Shown piece by piece: positions 5,853 through 46,052 of a DNA stretch of 54,684 nt. The translations under genes and the position numbers were made by a program. The notes below the pieces were generated by a model. It was not told the DNA's origin. It did no database searches and was given only the letters and a program-made list of their open reading frames with translations. Source of the stretch: a virus; the IMG/VR virus record IMGVR_UViG_3300036791_000093, positions 1 to 54,684 of that record. The stretch is one strand, 5' to 3'. The first letter of the stretch is position 1. Every line of letters starts with the position of its first letter.

Positions 5853-6065
5853 ATGGCAGAAATTCGCCTTACCGATGGGCAGGTGGCTCTCGTTGACGAC
5901 GAGGATTTCGAGCGTGTATCGCAATTCACATGGCAACCTATAAAGATAAACGGGAATACGCACGCAGGGACTTACGACATACCAACGCCGGACGGACGAC
6001 CTGTGTTAATGGAAAACCTCGTTATGCATCTAGCAGAAATCGATAAAGCTAGTAGAGAAAACTGA
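5853..6065 (+). CDS. Truncated HNH-endonuclease-like protein (N-terminal domain only)
   Basis: 70 residues from ATG 5853 (a GTG at 5847 is also possible; GGGAG lies at 5838-5842). The start, EIRLTDGQVALVDDEDFERV, matches the N-terminal domain of phage HNH-AP2 endonucleases and resembles the complete HNH protein at 16167-16577 (KQIKLSDGNITIVDDDVYDW). The protein stops before any HNH residues. The next gene, a different HNH type, begins on the stop codon. The simplest reading is a homing gene broken by insertion of another one. It is probably not an active nuclease. Confidence 0.65.
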   Translation: MAEIRLTDGQVALVDDEDFERVSQFTWQPIKINGNTHAGTYDIPTPDGRPVLMENLVMHLAEIDKASREN

Positions 6066-6589
6066 TGTTACTACCAAAAGAACTCAGAGAAATTTCAGGT
6101 TTCCCTGGTTATTTTGTTTCTTCTGGTGGTAGAGTCTTTTCGACTTTCTACAATAGAGGCACAGATTTCAGAGAACTCAAACTTAAACGCGGTTGGCACG
6201 GTTATATGGAAGTAACTTTGTATTCTTCTGGGGATTCTCCTAAAACCATGTTAGTCCACAGAATTGTAGCCCTAGCTTGGCTACCTGCCCCAGAAAATTC
6301 TTCATTTATACAGGTTCGACATTTAGATGATGATCCAACCAATAACGAGGTTAGTAATCTTGCTTGGGGTACTGCTGCAACAAACAATCGAGAACGTTCT
6401 ACTACTCTTCTAACAGAACAAAAAGTGAGAGAAATAAAAGAACTTCTCAAAATACATAGAAGATCGCGCGGAGAAACTGGACATGCAGACGGTAAATTAA
6501 CTTACGCAGAAATAGGAAAAATGTATGGTGTATCGAAACTTACAATTTCTTCTATAGCAAATGGGAAGAGTTGGAGAGATGTTGACTGA
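6065..6589 (+). CDS. HNH homing endonuclease (NUMOD4 type)
   Basis: 174 residues from ATG 6065. Residues about 5-45 (ELREISGFPGYFVSSGGRVFS) match the NUMOD4 module. Then comes the HNH core (LVHRIVALAWLP ... VRHLDDDPTNNEVSNLAWGT), and a C-terminal helix-turn-helix (TYAEIGKMYGVSKLTISSI) typical of DNA-recognition modules in these enzymes. Such free-standing enzymes cut at a recognition site and spread their own gene. The coding sequence is visibly more AT-rich than its neighbours, as expected for a recent arrival. It overlaps the start of the nuclease gene. Confidence 0.88.
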   Translation: MLLPKELREISGFPGYFVSSGGRVFSTFYNRGTDFRELKLKRGWHGYMEVTLYSSGDSPKTMLVHRIVALAWLPAPENSSFIQVRHLDDDPTNNEVSNLAWGTAATNNRERSTTLLTEQKVREIKELLKIHRRSRGETGHADGKLTYAEIGKMYGVSKLTISSIANGKSWRDVD

Positions 6590-13731: not shown

Positions 13732-16189
13732 GCGCAAGCATCCACTAGCTATATGTGAAAAGTGTCCATTCAAGAACAGATCGGTTGCATATACAACCGG
13801 GCCAGAAGATGCCAAGATTGCTGTAGTATCGCGTAGTCCTGGTCATTACGAGGCTCTTGCGGGTAAGTCGTTCTCTGGCCCATCTGGACGTGTGTTGGAT
13901 CATTTGTTGCAAATCCACGGTTACCAACGTGGTGATATTTTGACAACTAATGTGGTTCTCTGCCAGTCCGATGGAACGGAGCAGGGCTGGGGGGTCGCTG
14001 CTGCCTGCTGCGAGCCACGCCTAGCGTCAGAGATAGAGACGGCCGATACAGTGATTGCCTGCGGTAAGGAGGCCGTGTACGCCGTTCTAGGCGAGTCCAA
14101 CATATCGCAGAACCGAGGATACCCACACGTCAGGGAAATCCACGCCTCAGATCAGACCTCATTAAAACAGCGAGTTATCGTTACCACGAATCCTGCCGTG
14201 GTTTTGCGCGATGATGCTAACTATCCTGAGATGGTTAGAGACTTTCGTCTCGCGCTCGATCCACTTCCTGCGCCTAAACTGCCAACTGTGCGAATCATCG
14301 ACAACATTCGTGAGGCCAGAGACGCCATTGTAGATATGCTTGAGTTAATAACCACTGGCACTAAAGAGATCGTGGCGTCAGACCTTGAGACTCGATGGCA
14401 GACTGGCGAGACTGAAATCGTCTGTGCGGCATTTGCAACTAGAGCCGAGCGGGCCGTAGTTTTCGGTGAAGGAGTGTGTTCAAATAAACACTTCGTCACT
14501 CACGAACTGTCTCAGTTGTGGATGATTCCAGGAGTTAAATATCTGTGGCATAACGGGAAGTACGACATCAAAGTCTTGCGTAGCTCGTATGGAATTCCAG
14601 CTACAGTAGGCGAAGATTCAATGTTGCTCTCGTGGGCATTGGATGAAAGACCAGGTGATCCTGAAAGTGGAGCAGGTGGACATTCACTCGAATGGCTACT
14701 CAAGGACGAGCTTGGCTGGCCCAAGTACGAGCCAACCTCAGTCCGCAACTTTAAAAGAACTGGTAACTTGGAGAAGCCGAGGGAGCTTTATGAGTATAAC
14801 GGCTTTGATACTGCTGGCTCTCTGGCCCTTTTTGAAGTTCTCAAGCATAGGGCAATCAATGACAATGTTTGGGAGAAACCTTATAAGGGCATCATCTCGC
14901 GTCTTTCGATGGCGCTCGCGCGTATTGAGCTAGTCGGCAATCTATACGACGCAGAGAAAGCCTGCGACATTCTCGAATACGAGGTATGGCCCAAGCTAGA
15001 CGATCAACGCCAAAGGTTGAGGCGCATATCAAGCAGGCCCACACTCAATCCGAATTCACCAAAACAGCTAGAGAAGCTAATGTATGACGATTGGGGCATC
15101 GAACATGATTTGATGCGTCCGAAGATTGAACGGCAAGGCAAACGCAGCACAGACAAGTATGTGCGCGAAGCTATGTTGCTTGGTCTATACAGACTACCTG
15201 CTGCTAACGGGAATCGAGACAGCATCGATCAATTCATTCAGACGCTCGATGATTTCAAAGAATTGGACACACAGCGCAGTAGATACCTTGAAGGTTTGGT
15301 GTTGAAGCGTAAGGCAGACGGGAGGATCTACACGGAGTTTAAGATTCACGGTACGGAGTCTGGGAGGTTGTCAAGTGCCAATCCAAACCTTCAGAATATC
15401 ACTCGGACAAAGGAGGGTCTACCTAACATTAGAAGCTGCTTTATCCCAGACCCCGGATGTGTTTTCGTTTCAGCTGATCTTTCCCAGGCCGAACTCAGGA
15501 CGATTGCTGTTCTTAGCGGAGACATCAATCTTAGGAGTATCTACCTTGATACAAATAGATCGCTCCACAAGGAAGTAGCCGCCGAGTTCTATGGGGAAAA
15601 CTACACGTATGAACAATACGTGAGAGCGAAGAACATCAACTTCGGTGTGGCTTATTGGCAAAGCGCATTCAGCTTCGCTCAGTTGTACCACATGCCACGC
15701 GAAGAAGCGCAGAAGTTCATTGACTTTTGGTGGGATCGATTCCCGCAAGTGTGGGCATGGACGAAAGAAACCGAGAAAGCTGTGTTGACCACGGGTGAGC
15801 TGCAATCTCCGTTTGGTCACAAGCGTCGGTTCTTCGTGATTCCCGCGGACGAGTCATCCCGTCTGCATATCATCAAAGAGGGCATCAACTTCAAGCCTCA
15901 GAACATCGCAGCGAACATAACTTTGTGGGCACTTTGCGATTTCGTGGATCATCTAATCAAATACGATATGTGGCATATTGCTCAACCGAGAATCACAGTT
16001 CACGACTCAATCCTAGTCAATGTTCGTATGGGACACGAGGAAGAAATCGGTTATCTTCTAAAAGGGTTCCTTGAAGATGCGCCTATGAAGGCTATCGGAT
16101 GGGACTTTCCTTATTTGGCCGACCTTAGTATTGGGCCTACGTGGGGAGAATTGAGGGAAATAAATTTTGAAACAAATCAAGCTATCTGA
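13724..16189 (+). CDS. Family A DNA polymerase with N-terminal uracil-DNA-glycosylase-like domain
   Basis: 821 residues from ATG 13724, with AGGAG nine bases upstream. Residues about 8-185 match the UDG superfamily: CEKCPF, ISRSPG-like VVSRSPGHYE, FSGPSGRVLD and TNVVLC, with cysteines that could hold an Fe-S cluster. Residues 210-400 are a 3'-5' exonuclease (SDLETRW, WHNGKYDIKVL, YNGFDT). The polymerase part has motif A SADLSQAELR near 582, motif B RAKNINFGVAYW near 632 and motif C TVHDSIL near 758. Motif B ends in YW where YG is usual. It is the replicative polymerase. The end overlaps an HNH gene. Confidence 0.95.
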   Translation: MSERKHPLAICEKCPFKNRSVAYTTGPEDAKIAVVSRSPGHYEALAGKSFSGPSGRVLDHLLQIHGYQRGDILTTNVVLCQSDGTEQGWGVAAACCEPRLASEIETADTVIACGKEAVYAVLGESNISQNRGYPHVREIHASDQTSLKQRVIVTTNPAVVLRDDANYPEMVRDFRLALDPLPAPKLPTVRIIDNIREARDAIVDMLELITTGTKEIVASDLETRWQTGETEIVCAAFATRAERAVVFGEGVCSNKHFVTHELSQLWMIPGVKYLWHNGKYDIKVLRSSYGIPATVGEDSMLLSWALDERPGDPESGAGGHSLEWLLKDELGWPKYEPTSVRNFKRTGNLEKPRELYEYNGFDTAGSLALFEVLKHRAINDNVWEKPYKGIISRLSMALARIELVGNLYDAEKACDILEYEVWPKLDDQRQRLRRISSRPTLNPNSPKQLEKLMYDDWGIEHDLMRPKIERQGKRSTDKYVREAMLLGLYRLPAANGNRDSIDQFIQTLDDFKELDTQRSRYLEGLVLKRKADGRIYTEFKIHGTESGRLSSANPNLQNITRTKEGLPNIRSCFIPDPGCVFVSADLSQAELRTIAVLSGDINLRSIYLDTNRSLHKEVAAEFYGENYTYEQYVRAKNINFGVAYWQSAFSFAQLYHMPREEAQKFIDFWWDRFPQVWAWTKETEKAVLTTGELQSPFGHKRRFFVIPADESSRLHIIKEGINFKPQNIAANITLWALCDFVDHLIKYDMWHIAQPRITVHDSILVNVRMGHEEEIGYLLKGFLEDAPMKAIGWDFPYLADLSIGPTWGELREINFETNQAI

Positions 16190-16577
16190 CGGTAATATCA
16201 CAATCGTAGATGATGATGTCTACGATTGGGCTAATAAAATCAGATGGAATAATAATGGATTAAATTATGTTGTAACGGGTAGAGGTAACACAAAAAAATA
16301 TCTTCACAGAATGATTACAGAATGTCCTCCAGAAAAAGTTGTAGATCATATCAACATGAACACATTTGATAATAGACGAGAAAATCTGAGAATAGTAACT
16401 CGTTCAATCAATAATAGAAATAATTTAGGAAAAGGATACCATTTTCACAAGCAGACACAAAAATGGTGTGCCCAACTCAAACGTGATGGAAAGAAGATTT
16501 ACATAGGTCTTTTCGTCACCGAACAAGAAGCAAAAGAAGCAGTCAGGCAGTTCAAGGATAAGGAGCAAGCGATATGA
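16167..16577 (+). CDS. HNH-AP2 homing endonuclease
   Basis: 136 residues from TTG 16167, inside the last codons of the polymerase gene. The N-terminal module is IKLSDGNITIVDDDVYDW, the HNH core is LHRMI ... VVDHINMNTFDNRRENLRIV, and the C-terminal part (KWCAQLKRDGKKIYIGLF ... EAKEAVRQ) is an AP2 DNA-binding domain. The gene is much more AT-rich than the polymerase. Insertion right at the polymerase end is typical of homing genes that target conserved replication genes. Confidence 0.9.
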   Translation: MKQIKLSDGNITIVDDDVYDWANKIRWNNNGLNYVVTGRGNTKKYLHRMITECPPEKVVDHINMNTFDNRRENLRIVTRSINNRNNLGKGYHFHKQTQKWCAQLKRDGKKIYIGLFVTEQEAKEAVRQFKDKEQAI

Positions 16578-16921: not shown

Positions 16922-17397
16922 TGACATACGACTCAAGACCGGATACACATGCACACATCGAACGTGTGAGAGACTTTCTGGATTTGGTAATCAAGAATCT
17001 AGAAAATCGTTCTCGTGCTCACGATGCCAGTAAGCTCGTATCACCAGAGCTGGAGGCGTTTGACATCGCTACTCCGAAACTCGCAGGACTGGAATACGGT
17101 AGCGAAGAATATCGTCAAGCACTACGTGAAATCAAGCCTGCCATTCAGCACCACAACGAGCACAACGATCATCACCCAGAACATTATGAGAATGGCATAC
17201 GAGGCATGAGCTTGATGGCATTGGTAGAGATGCTGTGTGATTGGCGAGCAGCGAGTGAACGCAACAAACAAAGAACAGATGAAGCAGGAAATCCTCTACC
17301 GTTTGAGGCCAGTCTAGCTTATAGCCAAACACGATATGGTTACTCAGATGAACTTGCTGAAATCTTGCTGAACACGGTACGCGAGTTGGGTATGTGA
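16921..17397 (+). CDS. DUF5662-family protein
   Basis: 158 residues from ATG 16921, which overlaps the previous TAA. The pattern HIERVRDFL, then RAHDASKLVSPELEAFD, EYGSEEYRQAL and IQHHNEHNDHHPEHYENG, followed by LMALVEMLCDWRAA, matches DUF5662. This phage family has His/Asp spacing like HD-domain phosphohydrolases. A nucleotide- or phosphate-ester-hydrolysing activity is suggested by those residues but not established. Confidence 0.85.
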   Translation: MTYDSRPDTHAHIERVRDFLDLVIKNLENRSRAHDASKLVSPELEAFDIATPKLAGLEYGSEEYRQALREIKPAIQHHNEHNDHHPEHYENGIRGMSLMALVEMLCDWRAASERNKQRTDEAGNPLPFEASLAYSQTRYGYSDELAEILLNTVRELGM

Positions 17398-17759
17398 TGG
17401 ATGAAGATATTGACAAGCTGATCGCGCTCGTGAAGAAAGAGCGCAAGGCCAACGAGTTCTACGGACTCGCGAACGACCGCATAGACGCGCTTGTTTCCGC
17501 GCTCGAAGCGCTTGTTTCCGCGCTGGAACAGGCCCAGGAGAGCAATACCGGGTTGACCGAACGAGCGAGTGAGAACGCTGTGCGCCTCGCTGCTGCGATG
17601 CGACAGCGCGAGGCGGCTGAGGCCGACCTGGCACGGGCGCGGGAAGCGCTCGCGGAAATCGCGAACGGGTTCGCCGAGGCTAATGATGAGCGTTCTCGTT
17701 CGTCCGAAATGCAGCGGGTCGCTCGCGCTGCTCTCGCGGCCGGGAGCGGCGATGAGTGA
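17397..17759 (+). CDS. Coiled-coil protein (first of a paralogous pair)
   Basis: 120 residues from ATG 17397, overlapping the previous TGA by one base. It is almost wholly helical and Ala/Glu-rich (DKLIALVKKERKANEFYG, EADLARAREALAEIANG), a long coiled coil. A 21-base unit is duplicated in tandem at 17487-17528, giving ALVSALE twice. The coding sequence is markedly more GC-rich than the surrounding genes, suggesting separate origin. The next gene is related. Function unknown. Confidence 0.7.
   Translation: MDEDIDKLIALVKKERKANEFYGLANDRIDALVSALEALVSALEQAQESNTGLTERASENAVRLAAAMRQREAAEADLARAREALAEIANGFAEANDERSRSSEMQRVARAALAAGSGDE
17487..17528 (+). repeat. 21-base tandem duplication inside a coiled-coil gene
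   Basis: Two 21-base units (17487-17507 and 17508-17528) differ at one base and encode ALVSALE twice. The seven-residue step keeps the heptad of the coiled coil in register. Confidence 0.9.
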
Positions 17760-18048
17760 CACCGACAAGCTGATCGCGCAGGCGCGCGCCTGGCAGCACG
17801 ACCTGATGCCGCACACGGTAGAGCTTCTAAACGCGCTCGCTGACGAGTTAGAACAATCCCAGGCCGAGACGCTGGACGCGCGAGTGCAGACCGCGTGGAA
17901 GGTAGCTGAGGTTCGAGAACAGCTAGAGGCGGCTGAAGTCGAGTTGGCACAGGCGCGAGAAGCACTTAAATGGATTGAAGCAGAACCGGAAAATCAGGTG
18001 AAAGTGTTGATGTGGGCACGCGCCGGTCTTGGAATGGTTGATTCGTGA
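17752..18048 (+). CDS. Coiled-coil protein (second of a paralogous pair)
   Basis: 98 residues from ATG 17752, overlapping the previous stop by eight bases. It shares DKLIAQAR near the start and VELAQAREALKWIE near the end with the protein before it (DKLIALVK and ADLARAREALAEIA), so the two probably arose by duplication. It is helical and Ala/Glu-rich. The GC-rich character fades toward its 3' end. The stop overlaps the GTG of the resolvase gene (GTGA). Confidence 0.7.
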   Translation: MSDTDKLIAQARAWQHDLMPHTVELLNALADELEQSQAETLDARVQTAWKVAEVREQLEAAEVELAQAREALKWIEAEPENQVKVLMWARAGLGMVDS

Positions 18049-18521
18049 GAATCATCGCGATTGATCCGGGGATAATGACTGGCTACGTCTACGCGGAGCT
18101 TAACGAAACGGCTGGAACAGTTGAATACTACCCATTTCAGATGACAGACGAGGTTGACGATCTGTGGCGTAGACTCATTAAGTTTGAGCCTCGTTATATC
18201 ATCATCGAGGATTTCGAGTTTAGGAGTCGTTCGCGTACCGGCCTTGTTCTTTTCCCTGTTCAGCTAATTGGTGTAACTCGCTTATATGAGCTGGTAGCTG
18301 CGCCGAACGGAAAATGCGCTACTTTTATTCAAAAGGCCGCACAGGGGAAGTCGTACTATACAGACAACATGCTCAAGGCATTGGATCTGTATAAGCGTGG
18401 TGTCCCGCATGGCATGGATGCCTCACGGCATCTCATGCAATGGCTGACGTTTGGCGCGGGATATCAGTACATCCAGGGAAATCAAAAGTTTGCAACTCTG
18501 CTCGATAACTGGGCAGACTAA
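18045..18521 (+). CDS. RuvC-like Holliday junction resolvase
   Basis: 158 residues from GTG 18045. The RNase H-like fold of RuvC is indicated by RIIAIDPGIMTGY at residues 2-14 (first Asp), YIIIEDFEF near 53-61 (Glu) and a final acidic site at HGMDASRH near 121-128. Such enzymes cut branched DNA before packaging. It is the last replication-type gene of the arm, and its place after the polymerase and DUF5662 genes fits this role. Confidence 0.87.
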   Translation: MRIIAIDPGIMTGYVYAELNETAGTVEYYPFQMTDEVDDLWRRLIKFEPRYIIIEDFEFRSRSRTGLVLFPVQLIGVTRLYELVAAPNGKCATFIQKAAQGKSYYTDNMLKALDLYKRGVPHGMDASRHLMQWLTFGAGYQYIQGNQKFATLLDNWAD

Positions 18522-18595
18522 TACAAGGTAGACAGAAAGGAGATGAAGAGAATCTGAGGTAAGCAAGGTCATGTAATCTAACGGGAGGTTAGTCC

Positions 18596-18958
18596 TTGTT
18601 AGCCAAGCTGTCAGTCACCACAACTGTCGTAGTCTTTCTAGCCGTGCTAGGAGGCGCGGCAGGACAAACAGCAACAGCGAAACAGGAGTACCACAACTGG
18701 AGCAGGATGGTTTACAGTTGTGAGGCCAGGGGAATATACAATCCGTGGTATGCCAACACTGGCAACGGATTCTACTTTGGCCCACAGTTCACCCGCTCCA
18801 CATGGCACGTGGAGGGCGGAGGCCCGGTATCAGAAATGGGAGATCGTGGTGGTAGGCCAATGAAATACTACAGCATACCGTACATCATCCAAATCGCAGA
18901 GAACACAATACGCGATCAAGGGTACGGTGCTTGGCCTAACTGTCACGGGTACTTGTAG
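18596..18958 (+). CDS. Secreted Rpf-like transglycosylase
   Basis: 120 residues from TTG 18596, with GGGAGG about seven bases upstream. Residues 1-24 form a signal peptide (AKLSVTT, a hydrophobic VVVFLAVLGGAAG core, then AxA-like site). Residues 33-120 match the lysozyme-fold domain of resuscitation-promoting factors: WSRMVYSCEARG with the likely catalytic Glu43 after Cys42, TGNGFYFGPQF, STWHVEGGG, and the end QGYGAWPNCHGYL with the partner Cys. It should cut peptidoglycan outside the membrane. It lies at the end of the early arm, away from the endolysin. Confidence 0.85.
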   Translation: MLAKLSVTTTVVVFLAVLGGAAGQTATAKQEYHNWSRMVYSCEARGIYNPWYANTGNGFYFGPQFTRSTWHVEGGGPVSEMGDRGGRPMKYYSIPYIIQIAENTIRDQGYGAWPNCHGYL

Positions 18959-18969
18959 TAGTGTAAAGA

Positions 18970-19034
18970 GTTAGAGGGATCGCAGCTCACTTGTAGTGGG
19001 AGAGAGTCACACACAAGGGCGCGATCCCTCTAAC
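18970..19034. terminator. Bidirectional hairpin between convergent arms
   Basis: GTTAGAGGGATCGC at 18970-18983 pairs perfectly with 19021-19034 (14 bp) around a 37-nt loop. It lies exactly between the end of the plus-strand arm (18958) and the end of the minus-strand late arm (19046). Position and symmetry support a two-way stop. There is no strong U-run on either side. Confidence 0.75.
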
Positions 19035-19045
19035 ACTTCACTGAC

Positions 19046-19348
19046 CTATTCGTCGTCGGGTGGTTTTGGCACGCCTGACCAGCCGTGAACAGGCCACGCT
19101 TGATGGGCCTCGGTGACCTTTTCGCTCGTTTCGGTCTTAGTGGTTTTGGTTTCTGTGGATGGTAGACCACTCGGGTTTTCCTCTTCATCGTCATCATATC
19201 TGTCACGCTCCACAAAGAAGCCGTATCGTATTCTCCTAACATTCACGTCGCGGCGGACGAGGCGGTAGGCTAGCACCATCCCAAAGACCACGACGAAAGC
19301 GACTACAATGAACGCCTTGAAATCCCAAACAAACGCCGCACAAAACAT
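19046..19348 (-). CDS. Single-pass membrane protein of the lysis region
   Basis: 100 residues from ATG 19348, with GGGGGG just upstream on the minus strand. One long hydrophobic segment (FKAFIVVAFVVVFGMVLAYRL) near residues 10-30 is followed by a basic stretch and a long acidic, Thr/Pro-rich tail ending PKPPDDE. Placed 10 bases after the holin gene, it could be a second holin, an anti-holin or a spanin-like accessory. I cannot tell which. Confidence 0.7.
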   Translation of the reverse strand: MFCAAFVWDFKAFIVVAFVVVFGMVLAYRLVRRDVNVRRIRYGFFVERDRYDDDEEENPSGLPSTETKTTKTETSEKVTEAHQAWPVHGWSGVPKPPDDE

Positions 19349-19358
19349 GACCCCCCAT

Positions 19359-19538
19359 TCATTTGTCTTTACCGTTTGGTGGAAGCGAAACGATGATGAT
19401 TGCCACAGCACCTACGATGCCTATCACAGCTAACAGGTCGCTCGGTGTATCACGGTTCAGAACGAGCACGATGATCGCGAGCGTGAGTACAACAACCCCG
19501 CACAGGATCAGATAGACTGTTCGTTTAACCGGATTCAT
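19359..19538 (-). CDS. Holin (two membrane segments)
   Basis: 59 residues from ATG 19538, sharing one base with the endolysin stop. A short basic start (MNPVKRTVYL) leads into hydrophobic segment 1 (ILCGVVVLTLAIIVLVL), a polar turn NRDTPSD, hydrophobic segment 2 (LLAVIGIVGAVAIIIVSL) and the polar end PPNGKDK. Size, topology and position directly after the endolysin fit a class II holin, which opens the membrane for lysis. Confidence 0.82.
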   Translation of the reverse strand: MNPVKRTVYLILCGVVVLTLAIIVLVLNRDTPSDLLAVIGIVGAVAIIIVSLPPNGKDK

Positions 19539-20461
19539 CAGGCTACTCGAACAAACACCGTTCCTTGTGAGTTCTTGTTTCTAGTACGACGCATCACTTC
19601 ACCACCGTTTGAGTTATTGCTGGTTGATGTGTTGCCTTCAATCGCTGTGAAATTCCCGTTGTTGTCTGGCGGATTTTCCACGATTCCTATGTGATCGTAT
19701 TCACCATCCCGATCCCAATCGAAGCAAACCAGATCACCGGGTTTGGGACTTGATACGATCGATAGCCCTCTGTATCCCATGCGTGCATCGCTGACGATAT
19801 AGGGCACATAGGCATAGTACAATCCTTTTGAGAAAGACTTGGTTGGTTGTCCACCGAGTTGATCGCACCATGTGCAGAACATGGCACACCATGGGCCTAC
19901 CATGTTGTACCAGTCTGTGTATTTGCATAGGTTGGAGTCAGGTGGCGATTCCTTGACACCAATTTCTTTCAACGCCTTTGCCAACCGAGCCTGTGCGGGG
20001 GTTTGAGTGGGGGCCGGCGGATCTGGTTCAGGTTCTTTACCACCAAATCTGTCGAATGCAGCATTAATGAATTCTACAGCTCTTGCATCCATAGCTGGTT
20101 CACCAGCATGAGGCAATCCTGCTGGAACTCTGATTGAGCGTAGCGTGTTAAACGTTGGCTCACCGATCCAGCCTGTAGCCTGTACATTCTGTTGACGTTG
20201 GATACCCTCGATACCTGAGTCTTTTACCTGTCCGCCAGCTTTGCCGTGTGAAAATGCGTTATTGAATTCTTGATCGTATGCTTGCCAGGGCCAGCGTCCA
20301 GCTCTACTCACTGTTCGCTTGTATCCTTCGATGTCCGATCCGTCCATCGACGGATTTTTTCCTTGACTTGCGGAGTCAGGTGGGTAACAGGGACGGGGGA
20401 ATCCTTTGACCGCCACCATCGGGCCACCCGGATAACCTTTCTCATACCAGTTAGTACTCAC
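19538..20461 (-). CDS. Endolysin: peptidoglycan-binding and CHAP domains
   Basis: 307 residues from GTG 20461. The N-terminal half (DIEGYKRTVSRAGRWPW, IQRQQNVQATGWIGEPTFN) is the peptidoglycan-binding-like domain found in many actinophage lysins. A Pro-rich linker follows (EPEPDPPAPTQTP). The C-terminal half is a CHAP amidase/peptidase: Cys in GPWCAMFC near 195, His in YDHIGIVEN and the ending TAIEGNTST. It breaks the host wall at the end of infection. The holin starts on its stop codon. Confidence 0.9.
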   Translation of the reverse strand: MSTNWYEKGYPGGPMVAVKGFPRPCYPPDSASQGKNPSMDGSDIEGYKRTVSRAGRWPWQAYDQEFNNAFSHGKAGGQVKDSGIEGIQRQQNVQATGWIGEPTFNTLRSIRVPAGLPHAGEPAMDARAVEFINAAFDRFGGKEPEPDPPAPTQTPAQARLAKALKEIGVKESPPDSNLCKYTDWYNMVGPWCAMFCTWCDQLGGQPTKSFSKGLYYAYVPYIVSDARMGYRGLSIVSSPKPGDLVCFDWDRDGEYDHIGIVENPPDNNGNFTAIEGNTSTSNNSNGGEVMRRTRNKNSQGTVFVRVA

Positions 20462-20473
20462 GCTGTCACCGTC

Positions 20474-21760
20474 CTAAAGTTTGATGATGTAAGGCATAAC
20501 GATGTATGCGCCTGAGTCATTAGCCATACCTGCTGCTCCAATCGTTCCATCGATTCCGGGATTAGACGTGGGATTTCCGATTGCTCCGTTGATTGTGGGA
20601 TTCGTCGTTGGATTACCGACCGAACCAGACTTGACCAGAACAGCATTTCCTGTGTTAACAGTCACGCTACCAGACTTGGTAAGAACAGCAGCAGCGGTCT
20701 GAATACCGATACCTGTTCCATTTGCTGCCGTAGTACCACCGATCGCAGCGGAGTTAACACCCAAACTACGGTCTGTATCTGCGGAAGGCTGATCGCCGTT
20801 GTAGAATCCATTTAGACCGAGATACGTGGTATCAACGTAGAGTGATCCTGGGCCGTGGGCATGACCGTTATCGTTGATACCATGACTATGACCTGAATCG
20901 GCAAAGTTGAGACTGTTGGTTACACCGTGAGCATGGCCTGTATCTGCGAAACTAAAGGTATCCGAGTGAACGTGATTAGGCTCGGTGAGCGTGTGAACGT
21001 GAGCATGATTAGGAAGCGTCAACGTGTTGCTATGTGGGTGGCGTGGCCTACGATTGGCAACCGTTGCCATTCCCTCGTTCTTACCAACAGCATTTACATC
21101 TACATGACCAGCGGGAGCAAGACCAACGATGTTTCGTCCCTGAATGTCCGGTACGTTGAATGTCGTTGAGTTATCGCCGGAACCGAATGTTGTGCCAATA
21201 ATCGCGAAGAGATTGGCATAAGTTGTTCTCGAAATTGCCGATCCATCACAGAGTTGCCATCCTGATGGAGCAGCCGAGGTAGGCCACGGCATCATCATTC
21301 CAGTAGAGAACGAGGTAGGCGCCGGAAGTACAGCAGCCACTCGTTTATCGGTAATCTTCTGACTATTGATTGACGCTGCTGCCGCAGGAACCCGCACAGC
21401 GGCCAACACAACGTTATTCGCTGGGATTACTGGGAATACTGGTTGAGCAGCAGCAGTACCGGGAACGGATGTCTTATTGCCGGCGTTGTCTACACAGATG
21501 AGACTGAATCGTGGATTGGATGGATCGGCTGCGGCAATCGTGACATTACCAGCAGTCACGGCAACCTGTGTTCCTGCGACAGCCACAGTACCTCCGGCAA
21601 CTGCAACTGTCATGTTAGGAGTACCTTGCGCTGTAACCGCGCAACCAGACACAACTCCGTTTCCTGAGAACGCAGCGACAAGGATCGAGAAGTCTACGGA
21701 GTCAGGCTGTGCCTGGGATACATCTTCTGCGTTCGCAGCATTCGGAATCGTGAACGGCAT
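20474..21760 (-). CDS. Tail fibre/collar protein with His-x-His repeats
   Basis: 428 residues from ATG 21760, chosen over ATG 21763 for its spacing from GGAGGGG. Residues about 155-215 match the phage tail-collar domain (PWPTSAAPSGWQLCDGSAIS, FNVPDIQGRNIVG). Residues about 240-300 repeat His-x-His motifs (HPHSN, NHAHVH, NHVHSD, GHAHG, GHSHG), which in T4 gp37 bind iron along a trimeric needle. The C-terminus ends AYIVMPYIIKL. A trimeric receptor-binding or baseplate-tip role is likely. Confidence 0.85.
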   Translation of the reverse strand: MPFTIPNAANAEDVSQAQPDSVDFSILVAAFSGNGVVSGCAVTAQGTPNMTVAVAGGTVAVAGTQVAVTAGNVTIAAADPSNPRFSLICVDNAGNKTSVPGTAAAQPVFPVIPANNVVLAAVRVPAAAASINSQKITDKRVAAVLPAPTSFSTGMMMPWPTSAAPSGWQLCDGSAISRTTYANLFAIIGTTFGSGDNSTTFNVPDIQGRNIVGLAPAGHVDVNAVGKNEGMATVANRRPRHPHSNTLTLPNHAHVHTLTEPNHVHSDTFSFADTGHAHGVTNSLNFADSGHSHGINDNGHAHGPGSLYVDTTYLGLNGFYNGDQPSADTDRSLGVNSAAIGGTTAANGTGIGIQTAAAVLTKSGSVTVNTGNAVLVKSGSVGNPTTNPTINGAIGNPTSNPGIDGTIGAAGMANDSGAYIVMPYIIKL

Positions 21761-21769
21761 CATCCCCTC

Positions 21770-27962: not shown

Positions 27963-30218
27963 CTAATACCCCACATGGATATGATTCTCGTGCTCACTCA
28001 TGGTTGTTTCACCGTAATATCCGACAGCGGGCTGAGGAATAGTCAATGAGCGACAAGTAGTATCTGCATGACCTCCAAAACCGCCCGAAATTAGTTGTCT
28101 AGGTTTAAGAACAGTAGGAAGTGTATAGCCGTTGATTGTTTGACTGTTGAAGATTCTGTCCACCGTAACAGTGTCCGAACCTGCTGCATCAGTATTGACA
28201 TAATTGCCATTAAGACGATCAATGTCTACAGCGTGGCCACCCCAATGTCCAGTCATCCCATCATTACTACTGTGATCCGTACACCACGCATATGTGCCTA
28301 CCTGATATCCAATGGAGATGAGATACAAGACAGCCTGCATCGTTTTCGGATCGAGCCAAACGGGCGTTCCACCTGGATTAAGAATCTGTTGGCCTTTGGC
28401 AGTTATCTGAATTTGACTCAAACCTCCGCCATTGTCATCAGTCCACTTCTTGTTTTTATACATCTGAAGCAAAGTCTGAGCAAGCTTGACTCTATCACCC
28501 TCAGGGATACCGGGAGCATTCGGAAGGATTTGTCCTGCGCCAGCACCGTAGTTAGGTTGAGCATTAGGCCAACTAGGCGCACCCTCATACTGTTGACCGC
28601 CCGGAAGAGGCTCAGGAAGTGCAGGCATGATTTTCGTGCATGTGATTGTGGCGTTCAAATCGAAGAGGCTTCTGTCGTACTGAGACACAATCCATCTTCC
28701 ATTCCAAGGCCCCATATTTTTCGCAACAATGACTGATCCCGGTGGAACACTCCATCTGCCTACCCTGGCTTGGATTGTCAGAGTAGCTGTCTTTGCGTTG
28801 TTGTCGTATGATCCATCGACTTCAGTGATTCCATCTGCAAATTCATTGAGAATCATCATGGGCTGTTGTGAAAGCATGTCATCTTCGCTGAGATAATAGA
28901 ACGTACCACTTACGAAGAATGCACGCCAATTGACCTCTTTAGCTAGTCTCTGGATACATGACCAACTGTTTTCGGGCTTTCTATATTTTCTGTTTCCGAT
29001 ATCGTAAAAGTCTCCACGCCAGAAGTAGTAATCGCCGCTTGCCGTAGCCGCTGTCTTTTTCTTTTTGGAACCAGTAGTTGTGTTACTACCATTGCCACTT
29101 GGTATAGGAGGATCAACAACATTGCTGCCATTTGCAGCTGTTTGATTTGTGTCATTAACTCCACCAGTAATGCCATAATCGCTCACAATTTTATCGGCTT
29201 CGTTTTGCCACTGACCATATTTTCCGCGATTAAAAACTGCCGGGCCTTCTACGTGCCAACAAAGATCGTTGAACGAGAGATTCGGATTGTCTCTGTCAAT
29301 CGGGATGGCTGTATTAAAGTACCAGGTTGCGGCAAATTCGGGATCGGTTCGTTGATCGACAGTCCCTTTGTCATTGAGCATCTGGAATAAACCGGCACTT
29401 GTACTATCTTGTGTTCCTGTACTTGAGATGTTGCTTTGAAGATCATTCTCTTGAATGGCACACATGATGGCGCAGACAAAGACCTTACGACGGACGTTCT
29501 GAGTCTTGCGAAAATGTTCACCAACAGCGAGAATGATGTTTGCATTCGTTCTCTGATCTTGGGTAATTTTTGATCCCTTAACCGTCAAGCTCGGATCTTT
29601 CCACAATGGATTTCCTGGGAGCAGATTAGGATATTGGGAATTGCCCGGAGTTATGTTAACTCCTTTAGTCTTGTTGATGATAGTATCGAATCCAATTAGA
29701 TCACCAGTATACGATTCCATAGGCTGAACGATCGTTAGTTCTGGGATCACTACAGGAATCGTGAATTCCTTTACTTCTCGAATCAGGTTGAGGATGAACT
29801 CGGCGCGCGTCACCTTGCTTCTGCGTGCTTTCTTCCACTTGGAATATGTACGCAAGACAGCAATCTCTCTATCCTCGAAAGTGAGAACTAACTCATCACC
29901 GTTCTTGTCCACGCTTCTCAGTCTGAACCACAGGCCATCAAGCTCCACGTCCAGCTTGTTACTAAGCAGACCTGATGTAAGAAGAGTCCTATCGTAGTCA
30001 TTGACAGTCACGACTAATGCGGTAGAAGCATCAATACTACGCGAGAATGTGGCATCAATGACTCTTTCGACAAGATCAACTCTGACTTGACTAGATAGAT
30101 ACTGAACAAACTTGTTCATGTCAACATCGGTTCCCATGCCTTCGCGCTGCAACGCTTGCGGTGTGAGCTGCGAAAGCTCAAGTAGCCGATTGGCTGCTAT
30201 TGTCTTTGATGGTGGCAT
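27963..30218 (-). CDS. Tail hub protein with lysozyme-like and M15-like peptidase domains
   Basis: 751 residues from ATG 30218. Residues 1-200 (NKFVQYLSSQVRVDLV, DRTLLTSGLLSNKLDVELDG) resemble hub proteins of gp27/gpD type. Residues about 220-345 resemble an SLT/goose-type lysozyme: VFVCAIMCAIQENDLQ with the likely catalytic Glu, TSAGLFQML, and YFNTAIP. Residues about 430-560 form a second beta-rich hub part. The end has HWGGHAVDID (658-667) and ENHIHVGY (744-751), the His/Asp/His-x-His zinc pattern of M15-type peptidases. It would cut wall glycan and peptide during infection. Confidence 0.83.
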   Translation of the reverse strand: MPPSKTIAANRLLELSQLTPQALQREGMGTDVDMNKFVQYLSSQVRVDLVERVIDATFSRSIDASTALVVTVNDYDRTLLTSGLLSNKLDVELDGLWFRLRSVDKNGDELVLTFEDREIAVLRTYSKWKKARRSKVTRAEFILNLIREVKEFTIPVVIPELTIVQPMESYTGDLIGFDTIINKTKGVNITPGNSQYPNLLPGNPLWKDPSLTVKGSKITQDQRTNANIILAVGEHFRKTQNVRRKVFVCAIMCAIQENDLQSNISSTGTQDSTSAGLFQMLNDKGTVDQRTDPEFAATWYFNTAIPIDRDNPNLSFNDLCWHVEGPAVFNRGKYGQWQNEADKIVSDYGITGGVNDTNQTAANGSNVVDPPIPSGNGSNTTTGSKKKKTAATASGDYYFWRGDFYDIGNRKYRKPENSWSCIQRLAKEVNWRAFFVSGTFYYLSEDDMLSQQPMMILNEFADGITEVDGSYDNNAKTATLTIQARVGRWSVPPGSVIVAKNMGPWNGRWIVSQYDRSLFDLNATITCTKIMPALPEPLPGGQQYEGAPSWPNAQPNYGAGAGQILPNAPGIPEGDRVKLAQTLLQMYKNKKWTDDNGGGLSQIQITAKGQQILNPGGTPVWLDPKTMQAVLYLISIGYQVGTYAWCTDHSSNDGMTGHWGGHAVDIDRLNGNYVNTDAAGSDTVTVDRIFNSQTINGYTLPTVLKPRQLISGGFGGHADTTCRSLTIPQPAVGYYGETTMSEHENHIHVGY

Positions 30219-30877
30219 TAGTTCTTACCAATCTGTGGCGGAATCATGATTGTGATTCCTGGCTTGAGAGCCTTACCGTCACGAATGTTGTTAGCTGTTT
30301 TAAGAGCAGCCTCTGTGCTGTGGTGACGTGCGGCAATCAAAGCAAGTGTGTCTCCGCGCTTCACGATGTATGGCACACTCATAGGTGGTGGCTTGTTAAT
30401 TTGAAGCACAGTCTCTGCTACATACTCAAGACAATGGAAGGTAGCGTCTTGTCTGACTCTGTATCCAGAACCGTGGTTGTCTGGTTCCCAATAGACGACA
30501 TCCCCCCAATCGATTCCTTCCATGACCCATACAGCACCTACGACCGGCAATCCGCCATCGAGATAGAATGTCCACGGAGTTATCAGATCACCGCGAGATT
30601 GTTCCATTTGAGTTACTTTCCTGATATCTCGTTCCACGCTTATGGATGGATAACTAGGTGGTTGGACACCGATGTACCCATCGAAAATGACTGGAACATC
30701 CATTCTCCATGGATCATCGCCATCCCACTGTACTACTGATCTTCTGCGTGGACGATTGACTTGGTTGTATCTTGCACCGCCGCTGATGATCTTCGGTGAT
30801 GAAGTACCACGTCTCATCATGATACTCCACCCGTTTGAAGAACGCAGAAGATAAAACTGACTTGAATCGAGTGGCAT
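30218..30877 (-). CDS. LysM-containing tail protein
   Basis: 219 residues from ATG 30877, with its stop overlapping the hub start. The C-terminal 50 residues are a LysM module (YIVKRGDTLALIAARHH ... LKPGITIMIPP). Upstream is a beta-rich domain (VPVIFDGYIGVQPPSY, TPWTFYLDGGLPVVGAVWVM). This layout matches the LysM proteins that sit at the top of the hub, between tape measure and hub, in contractile tails. It likely binds the hub and peptidoglycan. Confidence 0.88.
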   Translation of the reverse strand: MPLDSSQFYLLRSSNGWSIMMRRGTSSPKIISGGARYNQVNRPRRRSVVQWDGDDPWRMDVPVIFDGYIGVQPPSYPSISVERDIRKVTQMEQSRGDLITPWTFYLDGGLPVVGAVWVMEGIDWGDVVYWEPDNHGSGYRVRQDATFHCLEYVAETVLQINKPPPMSVPYIVKRGDTLALIAARHHSTEAALKTANNIRDGKALKPGITIMIPPQIGKN

Positions 30878-33012
30878 TATCGCCTGGCCCTGTAGTCTTG
30901 ATTGGCTCTGGCTACAGCCTGTGCGAGCACTTTTCTATCAACCACGAGCTGCACAACGATCGGCTGTTCGTTACCATTCATTTGGTTAGCAGACCAGCCT
31001 ATTGGTTGGATCTGAGAATTGGGAGTGATTCGTGTTCCACCAGGAAGCCGTACAAGCTCCGGCCCACGCTCACCAACCAAAGACACTCCACCCGGCACCA
31101 TTCCACCCATCGCGTGTGAACCATAATAGCCACCAGAGGGTGATGCGTAACTAGCCACGTGCCCGATGAAGTGGCCTATTCTCCCGAAGAAACCACCTAC
31201 TGCTCTGACAGGAGTTGCGAAAACGTCCCAAAGCTTCTTTGCCCAGTTATAAGCAGATTGAATCCATCCAGAAATAGTTTTCCAATATTTTGCGATAAGA
31301 ATCACTGGCTGTATCAGGGGGAATAGAAGAGATACAATCAATGCAACGTAGAACCAGTTCTTCCACAGATACTTGGCTGTGTTGTTTACTGCATCGTGGA
31401 AAAGCTTCCATCTAAAATAGAGAACGGTTAGCGTGTAAACAATTAGTACCGCCAAACCGATCGGCCAGACTACTGCCCACAGAGTAGCGAATGAGACTTC
31501 TAGGCCGGTGATAGCTGGAATCAGACTCTCAGTTATAATCGTCACAAGGGCTCCGATTCCGGCTTTAGCTGCTCTACCAACGATGAAGAATGCTCTCGTA
31601 AGTTTGGCTAGGGCACTCTGGTTTGCGCTAACTTTGGTAGCAGTTTCTCCTATTCCTGTTCCAACCCACTTCTCAGCAAACGCCCACTTTTCGAGAGCTT
31701 TGATGACAGCTTTGATTCCTGCAACTCCGCCGCCGCCCTCCATAAAAGCCTTCTGAATAGCTTGCCAGATTGTCGTTACTTTAATTGCTCTACCAAGTCC
31801 CCATTGAGCAGCAGTATACGCTTCTGTGGCTAGAGTTACTCCTATAGTTACAGACTTTTCAAGAATGAATGCAGCGATCAGAACTCCGATAAGGACACCA
31901 AGTATCTTGGCAGCGTAGATATTTGCCCCAAAAATACTGGCAAGATAATCAAATGGAATAAGCAGATATTGGATAGCCTTCGTCAAAACGAAAAACAAAC
32001 CTACCACAGTTTTTAGAGCATATTCGAACGTGGTAAACAGATTGATGATGATATGGGTTTTCGGCGAAAGCGCAGTATCCATCGCCTGTGCGAGTAGTGC
32101 TAGTGTGATGGGCTTACCACCCTTAGTCAATGGAAGCAAGGCTTTATCAACGTCCACCAATCCTCTTCTGACAGCATCGAATGGGCCTTGTTCGGCTTTA
32201 CCCGCACCCATACCCAACAAGTCTTTGAATGTCGTCCATGCGCCTGAGAGAGTCCTGGTGGCTTGTCTGAAACCAGCGCCCGCGAATCCTTTTGTATTCA
32301 TGTAAGCATTGAATGCTTTTGTCGCATCCAGAGCTGAGATGATTCCAGCAGATACTTCTTGCTTAATTGTAGCTCCTGATTGATGGTAATAATATTCGAG
32401 AGCCTTGGTCATCTGCAAGTTGTCTCGGTTCAACTGGAGAAGGACTTGTCCCGTTAGATGACCAATTGAGTACATGTGCGCGAAAGCTAGAGTAGCCCTA
32501 TTCAGCGCAGCACTGGTTGTAAATCCCATAGCTGACAAACCGTTGATGACAGATTGCATGAGTTGATTTGTTTGAACGAGGCTACCATTGAAGATGTATA
32601 GACGTCTGGCACCCTGAACAATGTCTGGGAATAAGAATGGTGATCTGGCTGCTAAGGCGTAGAGATCATTTACTTCTTTCTTGACAAGCGCGTTATTGTG
32701 AATGAATCCCTGGAGTGCAACAGTTGCTGTGTTCGTTACAGAGTCATATTGGAATCCGAGTTTCGCGAGAGCGGCTCCCATTCCGAGTATGCCAAGTGTT
32801 CCATAGAACAATCCGCGTCGTGCCATGAACAAACCCTGATTCAGCATGAATGAACGCTTCGTAGCCTTCTCCATAGCCATACCAGAACTATTTACGGCAC
32901 CGGCGAATCCTCTCGTAACGAGGCCAGATTCTTCCATTTCTGCGCGATATTTTGGCCCACCCAACATGTACAGGCGAACCATAATATCTTGCGATCTTGT
33001 TAGGCCGTTCAT
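30877..33012 (-). CDS. Tape measure protein
   Basis: 711 residues from ATG 33012, overlapping the chaperone stop by four bases. It has the expected traits: a basic start, alpha-helical N-terminal third (MVRLYMLGGPKYRAEME), several hydrophobic membrane-type segments (FEYALKTVVGLFFVLTKAI, ILGVLIGVLIAAFILEK, ATLWAVVWPIGLAVLIVYTL) and a C-terminal end with PGGTRITPNSQIQ. At about 0.15 nm per residue this predicts a tail near 105 nm (inferred). It follows the frameshifted chaperones, the normal order. Confidence 0.9.
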   Translation of the reverse strand: MNGLTRSQDIMVRLYMLGGPKYRAEMEESGLVTRGFAGAVNSSGMAMEKATKRSFMLNQGLFMARRGLFYGTLGILGMGAALAKLGFQYDSVTNTATVALQGFIHNNALVKKEVNDLYALAARSPFLFPDIVQGARRLYIFNGSLVQTNQLMQSVINGLSAMGFTTSAALNRATLAFAHMYSIGHLTGQVLLQLNRDNLQMTKALEYYYHQSGATIKQEVSAGIISALDATKAFNAYMNTKGFAGAGFRQATRTLSGAWTTFKDLLGMGAGKAEQGPFDAVRRGLVDVDKALLPLTKGGKPITLALLAQAMDTALSPKTHIIINLFTTFEYALKTVVGLFFVLTKAIQYLLIPFDYLASIFGANIYAAKILGVLIGVLIAAFILEKSVTIGVTLATEAYTAAQWGLGRAIKVTTIWQAIQKAFMEGGGGVAGIKAVIKALEKWAFAEKWVGTGIGETATKVSANQSALAKLTRAFFIVGRAAKAGIGALVTIITESLIPAITGLEVSFATLWAVVWPIGLAVLIVYTLTVLYFRWKLFHDAVNNTAKYLWKNWFYVALIVSLLFPLIQPVILIAKYWKTISGWIQSAYNWAKKLWDVFATPVRAVGGFFGRIGHFIGHVASYASPSGGYYGSHAMGGMVPGGVSLVGERGPELVRLPGGTRITPNSQIQPIGWSANQMNGNEQPIVVQLVVDRKVLAQAVARANQDYRARR

Positions 33013-43663: not shown

Positions 43664-45129
43664 TAGAGCCTTATCAACTCATCGAGTGTTATGTTGTTGT
43701 GCAACGTGAAGAAATCCTCACTCTCACTACCCTTGTAATTGGCACCGTAAACATCGCTAAGGTGCATCCCTGCACCATTTACGAAGTACGGGCCAATGAA
43801 GTAGCGGAGCGCATCCACCGCATGATCGTCAACCTTATGTTGAATATTGCCGTCCGCAGTCAATTCTTGCAGGTCGGATCTACGCGCCACTCGTCCTTGT
43901 TCCTTAACATGAAGCTTTGGCATCTGCCTAATCAAATTAGTGCAACTAGGATTGACGAGCAGCTTGGCTGGCATCGACTTGAGCATACGCTTCATTTGCT
44001 CGATCGCCAGTTTCCATCGCACGTCCTCCTGCGCTACGTAACCGATCGTGAGTGCGAGAGTTGATGCCTCATCTGCACCACGCGGATCGCCCCACATGCC
44101 ATCAACATGATAGCCATCTGGATTTTCGCGATCACGCAGGTAGATGCCGTGTTCGTGTGTACTCAAGCCAGACTTATAGTATTCCCGCCACACGTAGACA
44201 AAGGGGTTGTTGACATCTGCGGGATCGGGTATGACTTGTACGTCAAGGCATACGAAAGGATTAACAAATCCGTAGTCAAATGCAAGGAAGTTTGGGTACT
44301 GCGGCTCGAAGGGATGATGGACAATGTGGACATTATCCTCCCACTCCTCGAAGATGGTGCCAGTCATCGTTGTGAACTTGGCACCATATTCCTGGTCGAA
44401 CCATCTCTTGCTCGCCACACGCTTTACACGTTGAATCTCAGGGTCGTTGTACCCGCCAGGAAAACGTACCGTATTCTCCCACGTGGGGAAGTTCCACGAC
44501 TGGTACAGTGTCTTACCGCCAGGAGTCAAATTGCTGAGATTAGCATCCTGGCCCAGCATGTACATGCCGTGATACCAGTTGTATCCCTGCGGCGTACTTG
44601 GGAAGTCACATGAGCCGCGCAGGTCGCTCAGCGCCGGCTCTACAAACTGTTCCCATGTAGCTCTGTTGTGCCTCGCCGCCTCGCTCATACATGCGTGACT
44701 GAGCGCTTCTCCAAGCAAGGCATCAGGCTTATCAGCAGACACCACTTCAATGTGGGCATTCCAGGGTGTGATGATGTACATGTCACCCTGGTGAGCTGAG
44801 TAGCCCTTCTTGCAATACTTGAGGATTCCAAGTTTCTGGAAGTCCTGCCAAACAACGCGGAACTCTTTCTCACCTAGCTTGTACGTTGGCCCGATGATCC
44901 AGTTCCACGTATCTGTCTTAAATGCTTTGAGTCCCATGCGATGGCCCGCCGGCAATGATTTGCCATATCGCCTACCGCAGCATGGGATGCTGAACCTAGC
45001 CTTAGAGAACAGGTATTCATTCTGACCTGGTGAGTGAGGCGCGAACCCGATCTTGGAGTAATACTGATCCGCTGGAATACCAGGTTCCAGATTCGGGTCT
45101 GGCCTCCCTACGTTAGTTGTTAAGGACAT
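43663..45129 (-). CDS. terL: Terminase large subunit
   Basis: 488 residues from ATG 45129. The ATPase part shows an atypical Walker A, SIPCCGRRYGKSLPAGH near residues 47-63, and a Walker B-like region near 130-145. The nuclease part includes FLAFDYGFVNPFVCLDVQ near 283-300 and later acidic residues (DDHAVDALRYFIG near 448), as usual for the RNase H-like nuclease of TerL. It packages and cuts DNA. Its start overlaps the end of an HNH gene that sits between it and the small subunit. Confidence 0.92.
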   Translation of the reverse strand: MSLTTNVGRPDPNLEPGIPADQYYSKIGFAPHSPGQNEYLFSKARFSIPCCGRRYGKSLPAGHRMGLKAFKTDTWNWIIGPTYKLGEKEFRVVWQDFQKLGILKYCKKGYSAHQGDMYIITPWNAHIEVVSADKPDALLGEALSHACMSEAARHNRATWEQFVEPALSDLRGSCDFPSTPQGYNWYHGMYMLGQDANLSNLTPGGKTLYQSWNFPTWENTVRFPGGYNDPEIQRVKRVASKRWFDQEYGAKFTTMTGTIFEEWEDNVHIVHHPFEPQYPNFLAFDYGFVNPFVCLDVQVIPDPADVNNPFVYVWREYYKSGLSTHEHGIYLRDRENPDGYHVDGMWGDPRGADEASTLALTIGYVAQEDVRWKLAIEQMKRMLKSMPAKLLVNPSCTNLIRQMPKLHVKEQGRVARRSDLQELTADGNIQHKVDDHAVDALRYFIGPYFVNGAGMHLSDVYGANYKGSESEDFFTLHNNITLDELIRL

Positions 45130-45589
45130 AATCAGAGCGAGGAAAGTTCAGACGTGCATACTCCCCAAAGCATTCTATTGCTGCTCTGTCATATGCTCTA
45201 GCGGCATCTTCCTCATTGTCATAGCGACCAAGAAAAATCTTTTTGTAATCTTTCTTAATTTCCGCTTGCCATTTGTTCTTGGTTTTTTGCCAGCATACAC
45301 CCTTGAATCTCGATGTACGCCGGCCCGCTATCTTTCTTTTGTTGGCATTGTTAAGTGTTCTGGTTGCAGCTCTGACATTTTCATTCTGCATGTTGAGAGG
45401 ATCGAGGTCCTTGTGATCCCATTCTCCACCATTCGGAGCCCTGCCAAACAAGAACACATGCATCTCCATCACGCCATTGGTTGGATAGCCAGTGCGATTG
45501 AGATACCAGTTTGATCTCATAGCCAAATCGTACTTGTCATCGCTGACAAGCACAACTTTATCTGAATTATTAAGAGGTACTGTTTTCAT
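45113..45589 (-). CDS. HNH-AP2 homing endonuclease between the terminase genes
   Basis: About 158 residues from ATG 45589 (the frame is open further upstream into the small-subunit gene). KVVLVSDDKYDLAMRSNWYL is the N-terminal module, EWDHKDLDPLNMQNENVRAA the HNH core, and RFKGVCWQKTKNKWQAEIKK with ARAYDRAAIECFGEYARLNF an AP2 domain. It is AT-rich. Its end overlaps the large terminase start by 17 bases, so the homing gene wedged itself tightly between two essential genes. Confidence 0.88.
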   Translation of the reverse strand: MKTVPLNNSDKVVLVSDDKYDLAMRSNWYLNRTGYPTNGVMEMHVFLFGRAPNGGEWDHKDLDPLNMQNENVRAATRTLNNANKRKIAGRRTSRFKGVCWQKTKNKWQAEIKKDYKKIFLGRYDNEEDAARAYDRAAIECFGEYARLNFPRSDYVLNN

Positions 45590-46052
45590 TTTTAAATTGT
45601 TGGAGTTCCTCATGGGTGTAAGTATTACCGGACTGCTTATCGGGTGCAGGCTCGGGTGTGGTTTCAAACAAGCCATTAATCAGATCGCGGATGGGATCGC
45701 CCTCGAAACGTCCTTCCTCGAAGGCTTCCTTGAGTACTGTGGTTGAGGCTCGCAATCTGATCGATTCACTATCGCTGTTCTGAGCAAGCCACACAATCTG
45801 GAGTGCAGCTTCCTCAGCATGTGTACGGAACAAATCTCGTGCGGCTTTCTCCACGTCCTGCGGTCGCCGCTTTTCCTCAGCTTCCTTGGCTTGTGCCTCA
45901 GCGAACTCTTCCCTGAGAGCTGCGGCGTACTCCTTAAGTGCGCTTTGCGCCATTTCCTCGGTAAGGCTGTCATCTGGGCTAACGGGGGTTTGCGGCGTGG
46001 GTGGGGTTTCTGCATCTGGATCGGGTACGTGAGTATGTGGCTCGTCGGCCAT
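45570..46052 (-). CDS. Putative terminase small subunit
   Basis: 160 residues if started at ATG 46052 (a GTG at 46085 would add 11). The first 40 residues are Pro/Thr-rich. The middle is a long charged helix (LKEYAAALREEFAEAQAKEA). Then comes EEAALQIVWLAQNSDSESIR with ASTTVLKEAFEEG, a helical repeat seen in small terminase-region proteins. It is the first gene of the late arm. An extended -10 element ends seven bases before its ATG, suggesting leaderless translation. The small-subunit call is by position and helical pattern. Confidence 0.65.
   Translation of the reverse strand: MADEPHTHVPDPDAETPPTPQTPVSPDDSLTEEMAQSALKEYAAALREEFAEAQAKEAEEKRRPQDVEKAARDLFRTHAEEAALQIVWLAQNSDSESIRLRASTTVLKEAFEEGRFEGDPIRDLINGLFETTPEPAPDKQSGNTYTHEELQQFKNENSTS

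Follow-up and report, generated by a model that had tools for sequence, protein, structure and literature searches.

The window analysed here, the whole 54,684-nucleotide stretch of virus record IMGVR_UViG_3300036791_000093, encodes a 120-residue protein that we consider, with a probability of roughly 60%, to be a host-exported accessory lysis enzyme working like Tgl of Kayvirus; it is of the Rpf family, with which bacteria loosen the cell wall and leave dormancy. The protein carries an Rpf-type domain with conserved catalytic and cysteine positions and a signal-like N-terminus; its gene faces a lysis cassette, and this position is conserved in relatives. Position is the better guide to function, and in relatives it points to the lysis module. 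The features are listed in Table 1.

Table 1. Features of the Rpf-like gene, its surroundings and the related loci
Feature	Position	Strand	Basis
RuvC-like nuclease gene, directly upstream; used to mark the slot in relatives	18045..18521	+	PHROG matches
Ribosome-binding-like site GGGAGG, 7 bases before the TTG start	18583..18588	+	sequence
Rpf-type transglycosylase-like protein, predicted secreted, 120 aa, TTG start	18596..18958	+	ORF and profile matches
Predicted signal peptide, residues 1-28, A-T-A at 26-28	18596..18679	+	heuristic
PF06737 Rpf/transglycosylase-like domain, residues 34-116	18695..18943	+	Pfam profile
Cys42-Glu43, the conserved Cys beside the likely catalytic Glu	18719..18724	+	invariant in alignment A1
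Cys116 codon	18941-18943	+	invariant in alignment A1
14-base inverted repeat (18970-18983 / 19021-19034), part of the strong hairpin that separates the convergent arms	18970..19034	.	sequence and folding
Small membrane protein, lysis-cassette candidate	19046..19411	-	sequence; no family match
Holin candidate, a membrane protein of 58 aa; L092 counterpart 79% identical	19359..19538	-	sequence; no holin family match
CHAP endolysin	19538..20461	-	PF05257 E 6e-12; phrog_21825 endolysin E 1.3e-30
Collagen-like G-P-P proteins in related loci	L109:4818-5114; L128:9766-10095; L130:7236-7637(-); L141:14290-15030(-)		

The sequence-only reading had proposed a stand-alone secreted protein with an Rpf-type domain, a likely catalytic Glu43 and paired cysteines, to be checked by profile search and structure prediction. 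The profile search bore out the domain, PF06737 matching residues 34-116 with an E-value of 2e-11 and 44.8 bits against a curated cut-off of 27. PHROG 29757, 'transglycosylase', also matched (E 4.9e-15), and the closest solved structures by sequence were M. tuberculosis RpfE (6e-9), RpfB and RpfC. PF06737 was found once in the whole record of 54,684 bases, in this 120-residue frame. Cys42, Glu43 and Cys116 were invariant in the eight phage proteins of alignment A1 (the window protein and seven others), in agreement with the residues named beforehand; from knowledge of the Rpf family we take Glu43 to be the catalytic residue, as it adjoins Cys42 in the Rpf manner. The AlphaFold model of the protein was of moderate confidence (pLDDT 61). 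All 15 of its 15 Foldseek matches in the PDB at E <= 0.001 were Rpf chains, and it gave a VIA Z of 8.2 against RpfE. Since the alignment behind the model included Rpf relatives and its confidence was moderate, the model supports an Rpf fold without proving it. The catalytic domain, the Cys-Glu motif, the cysteine pair and the signal-like N-terminus are common to this protein and the actinobacterial RpfC/RpfE-type proteins (PF06737). It differs from them in being encoded by a phage and in carrying two insertions, one of 3 residues behind the Cys-Glu motif and one of about 7 ahead of the last helix. It also lies below the NCBIfam equivalog cut-offs, far below in the case of RpfC (NF046107, 44.8 of 200 bits; Rpf NF046106, 41.4 of 180).

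At the N-terminus are a Lys and a hydrophobic core, together with an A-T-A site whose last residue is number 28. Signals were called not by SignalP but by a simple rule that looks for charge, a hydrophobic core and an A-x-A site (here at 26-28); 2 of the 56 window genes passed it, namely the Rpf-like gene and that of the 58-residue membrane protein in the lysis cassette. The proposal of a stand-alone secreted protein is supported, secretion by this heuristic signal.

Between the RuvC-like gene and the Rpf-like gene lie 74 bases; the RuvC-like product matched phrog_1981, of unknown function (E 4e-15), and, at E 0.0012, the Holliday junction resolvase family phrog_1770. The rightward genes end with the Rpf-like one, and the leftward lysis and tail genes begin beyond the hairpin (-44 kcal/mol, z -7.35), a putative terminator from which a clean T-run is absent. 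The distance from the Rpf-like gene to the first, convergent, ORF of the lysis cassette is 87 bases. The earlier placement of the gene at the end of the early arm therefore agrees with what was found. It lies on the early-side strand; no sigma-70-like promoter was found in 17300-20700.

A tail sheath (phrog_23) is present in the record, which therefore represents a contractile-tailed phage. Every one of the 88 phage records with a sheath relative belongs to a phage of Arthrobacter, Gordonia or Brevibacterium, and the 5 with an endolysin relative all belong to phages of Actinomyces or Bifidobacterium. Since all are from actinobacterial phages, a host in the Actinomycetota is likely. The polymerase was also tried as a host clue and was uninformative, matching 3749 records across many host phyla; megablast of window positions 10001-35000 against phages gave no match.

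Stand-alone secreted Rpf-like phage proteins are not new, and the novelty that the sequence-only reading had implied is lost: they are already found in isolated Rhodococcus and Streptomyces phages and in an M. abscessus prophage. In a tblastn search of 50,697 phage records 57 matched, of which 33 were annotated tape-measure genes of Mycobacterium phages and 24 were otherwise. Ten of these 24 loci were inspected. Two were in faecal contigs and encode longer, unannotated relatives; eight were in named phages or prophages (Shagrat 107, Weasels2 gp46, REQ1 gp63, prophi79-1 gp102, BRock gp43, Dorin 28, GiJojo 174 and Trina gp44). The eight named proteins are of 102-358 residues and have, as in the window protein, a single Rpf domain behind a hydrophobic N-terminus; prophi79-1 gp102, from the M. 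abscessus prophage, is annotated 'resuscitation-promoting factor'. The seven aligned proteins share 37-43% identity with the window protein and most have extra C-terminal regions, and the gene neighbourhoods differ from that in the window. The IMG/VR search gave 191 candidate loci coding for relatives. Among the best 80 of these 191, 73 domain sequences are distinct; 69 of them lie in frames no longer than 450 codons and one in a frame of more than 600. Among the 69 short-frame relatives, 63 were signal-like at the start by a liberal rule, an upper-side figure because every possible start was tried and the query alignment contained signal peptides. A single-protein scan of IMG/VR confirmed no close relative of the window protein.

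The endolysin, the sheath, the RuvC-like protein and the polymerase served as queries to gather related contigs, and the slot beyond the RuvC-like gene was examined in 15 loci with a RuvC-like match (L143 and L144, second copies of two contigs, were uncounted). Five of them (L129, L137, L138, L140 and L142) could not be judged because their contigs end 0-1.3 kb after the match. The ten judged loci, with at least 3 kb past the RuvC-like gene, were L109, L128, L130-L136 and L141, and include near-duplicates in the slot gene (L130/L131 and L135/L136). A small signal-like protein, starting 0.1-1.8 kb after the RuvC-like gene, occupied the slot in 10/10; in L133 the signal rule was met only from an internal Met, by eye. 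Six of the ten proteins were Rpf-type, two weakly lysozyme-like and two unrecognised, and their identity to the window protein was only 19-34%. In Pfam, PF06737 was above its cut-off in L109, L132, L133 and L141, SLT_3 matched L130/L131 weakly (E 0.03), and nothing relevant matched L128, L134, L135 or L136. The L128 and L134 proteins are of the CIHxYEG type, like those of L109 and L141, and count as Rpf-type by their similarity to the PF06737-positive slot proteins in alignment A3; their matches to the A3 profile hold by construction, since both belong to that alignment, and the profile also finds the non-members L132, L133, G028 and the window protein. Whole-record scans found no second Rpf-type gene in the records of the six Rpf-type slot loci. 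The slot is thus apparently kept occupied while the enzyme family inside it changes, and it is for this that we regard it as of moderate interest.

The L135/L136 protein was also considered as lysozyme-like; Pfam and PHROGs gave nothing useful and it was left uncounted. By eye it has C..SEGG and GSGAxGWxQF, resembling lytic transglycosylases, and its model was uninformative (pLDDT 35). Close cellular matches to the CIHxYEG-type profile were rare, at 2 of 396 genomes at E <= 1e-20 (L246 and L247), the scanned genomes coming from the phylum of G046. One of the two is a YEG form; the other, an HESGG form that contains TGNGYYGGLQ, bridges both types. Two genomes were too few for placing the host. 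In the record of L107 a second CIHxYEG-type copy, interrupted by one TGA, was seen near the intact one (G006:C1:59517-59648).

The link to lysis genes recurs in relatives. L109 and L128 have, on one strand, the order RuvC-like gene, endolysin, small membrane or short protein, collagen-like secreted protein and slot enzyme; the slot gene is thus on the endolysin strand, 0.55-0.7 kb beyond the endolysin. In L092, where 3 of 12 queried window genes matched (endolysin 76%, 58-residue membrane protein 79% and polymerase 25% identical) and the RuvC-like gene did not, a CIHxYEG-type secreted-looking protein again faces the lysis cassette. The Streptomyces phages BRock and GiJojo carry their Rpf-like gene two genes from the endolysin.

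The N-terminal part of the window endolysin is conserved at about 61-66% in L128, L129 and L132, the match stopping near residue 143-155. In L128 an amidase-like C-terminal part, by eye, replaces CHAP, so the catalytic domains of the endolysin look exchanged. Relatives repeatedly have, in their lysis region, a small protein that looks secreted and bears collagen-like G-P-P repeats; it was not seen in the lysis cassette of the window. Its ends in L109 and L130 share a CPTGxxxGxLVINHPGGQxTxxTCIK-like motif, L128 more loosely.

The closest functional parallel is Tgl of Kayvirus. According to the available text of PMC7150955, Tgl is a secreted transglycosylase with a lysozyme core common with Rpf and early-type transcription, its gene lies a few genes from lysK, near the endolysin and holin, and the enzyme is tolerated until the membrane is depolarised; it was proposed as an additional endolysin. 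The window protein likewise has a predicted signal peptide (heuristic) and a transglycosylase-like domain, and its gene is near those for endolysin and holin candidate; the two are likened by these features, and the host phylum differs, Kayvirus infecting Staphylococcus. For the window protein, export, enzymatic activity, timing and cooperation with the endolysin are inferred. The Sec machinery of the host would export the Rpf-family enzyme during infection, and the enzyme would nick glycan strands from outside the membrane, which the cell would tolerate while energised and growing. The holin would then release the CHAP endolysin, which would cut peptides, and the pre-nicked wall would come apart quickly. 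As described in the consulted part of PMC2262848, RpfB and the endopeptidase RipA together hydrolyse peptidoglycan more than additively, which is the pairing expected with a CHAP peptidase/amidase. According to a 2018 review (PMC6116114), the mycobacteriophage endolysins known by that year lack export signals, so a partner enzyme that is exported would genuinely add to the picture.

Several observations count against a role in lysis. The gene is on the early-side strand, outside the lysis operon, and no sigma-70-like promoter turned up nearby. The slot proteins are distant from the window protein (19-34% identical), and four of the ten are not Rpf-type by profile. Records found via the endolysin often give no match to the enzyme: the A3 profile matched in 5 of the 21 found through high endolysin identity (L092-L112), many of the rest being short, and in G003, a 52 kb record found in this way, it had no match. 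The copy in L107 is distant from the endolysin and that in L112 lies about 9 kb from it, beside a terminase-like gene (by eye). In Weasels2, Trina and Dorin the gene sits among nucleotide-metabolism genes.

A rival reading is early remodelling, in which the exported enzyme would keep the host wall growing or block dormancy and so let replication finish. The early-side arm and the nucleotide-metabolism neighbourhoods in Rhodococcus phages favour this reading, as does the up-regulation of 4 of 6 host rpf genes on infection by phage WC1, which its authors suggest prevents dormancy (PMC10986025, in the part available). It leaves unexplained, however, the repeated placement against the lysis cassette in the lineage of the window, and we hold it to be rather unlikely. 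A role beyond the infected cell may also be imagined. The biology of the Rpf family is tied to dormancy. This biology, also treated in PMC1796659, speaks together with the heuristic secretion signal for a released enzyme that would resuscitate neighbouring dormant hosts and so provide new hosts for progeny. Nothing in the data is specific to neighbours, though, and the open-licence literature searched, where an absence is weak because most subscription papers lie outside it, yielded no account of cells being woken by a phage Rpf; the main text of PMC13313380, on Rhodococcus phages, as far as available, contains neither 'resuscitation' nor 'Rpf', and PMC6950372, in its accessible portion, deals with PRD1-type virion transglycosylases and not Rpf. 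Such waking of neighbours we consider improbable. A broader form of the idea, quite doubtful in our estimate, is that the lineage keeps a slot for an exported, early-made glycan cutter, with deeply diverged or unrelated lysozyme-like families swapped in it, which would loosen or wake non-growing actinobacteria beyond the infected cell. Phages would complete infection there, and dormant soil populations would become infectable.

A function in entry or in the virion is suggested by the 33 of 57 matched phage records that are annotated tape-measure genes. The Rpf motif of mycobacteriophage tape measures (Barnyard motif 1; Giles and BigNuz groups) belongs to the same domain family, and the TM4 tape-measure hydrolase motif aids infection of stationary cells (PMC1796659, available part). 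There, however, the motif is embedded in a virion protein, whereas the window protein is stand-alone, signal-bearing and away from the tail genes, and the sole PF06737 match of the record falls outside the tape measure (30877-33012), where Pfam matched only TMP_3. This reading is quite improbable and its tape-measure form was rejected. The low identity to the slot proteins of relatives could mean that a host rpf gene was picked up recently, without a selected role. Yet among the best 80 the nearest cellular proteins reach no more than 46% identity with the window protein (tblastn), the GC3 of the gene (0.587) is inside the range of seven other phage genes (0.39-0.60), and the slot is filled in all readable relatives. 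Recent acquisition was rejected as highly improbable.

If the lysis reading of the slot is true, phages of uncultured soil actinobacteria would use a two-enzyme wall attack, one of the enzymes being exported before the holin acts, in the way put forward for Kayvirus. The system would offer a clean test case for Rpf-type activity in lysis versus host physiology, with isolated Streptomyces and Rhodococcus phages as laboratory models.

Other genes of the window also deserve mention. A 750-residue protein beside the tail genes (27963-30218, minus strand) matched nothing in Pfam or PHROGs; inspection by eye shows a stretch like that of lysozymes (AGLFQML) and a C-terminus that is His-rich and peptidase-like, and the protein may be the virion wall enzyme. 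Three ORFs (6065-6589, 16167-16577 and 45113-45676) are, by eye, HNH/AP2 homing endonuclease-like, and the tail collar protein (PF07484) at 20474-21763 on the minus strand contains a run of histidine-rich HxH repeats.
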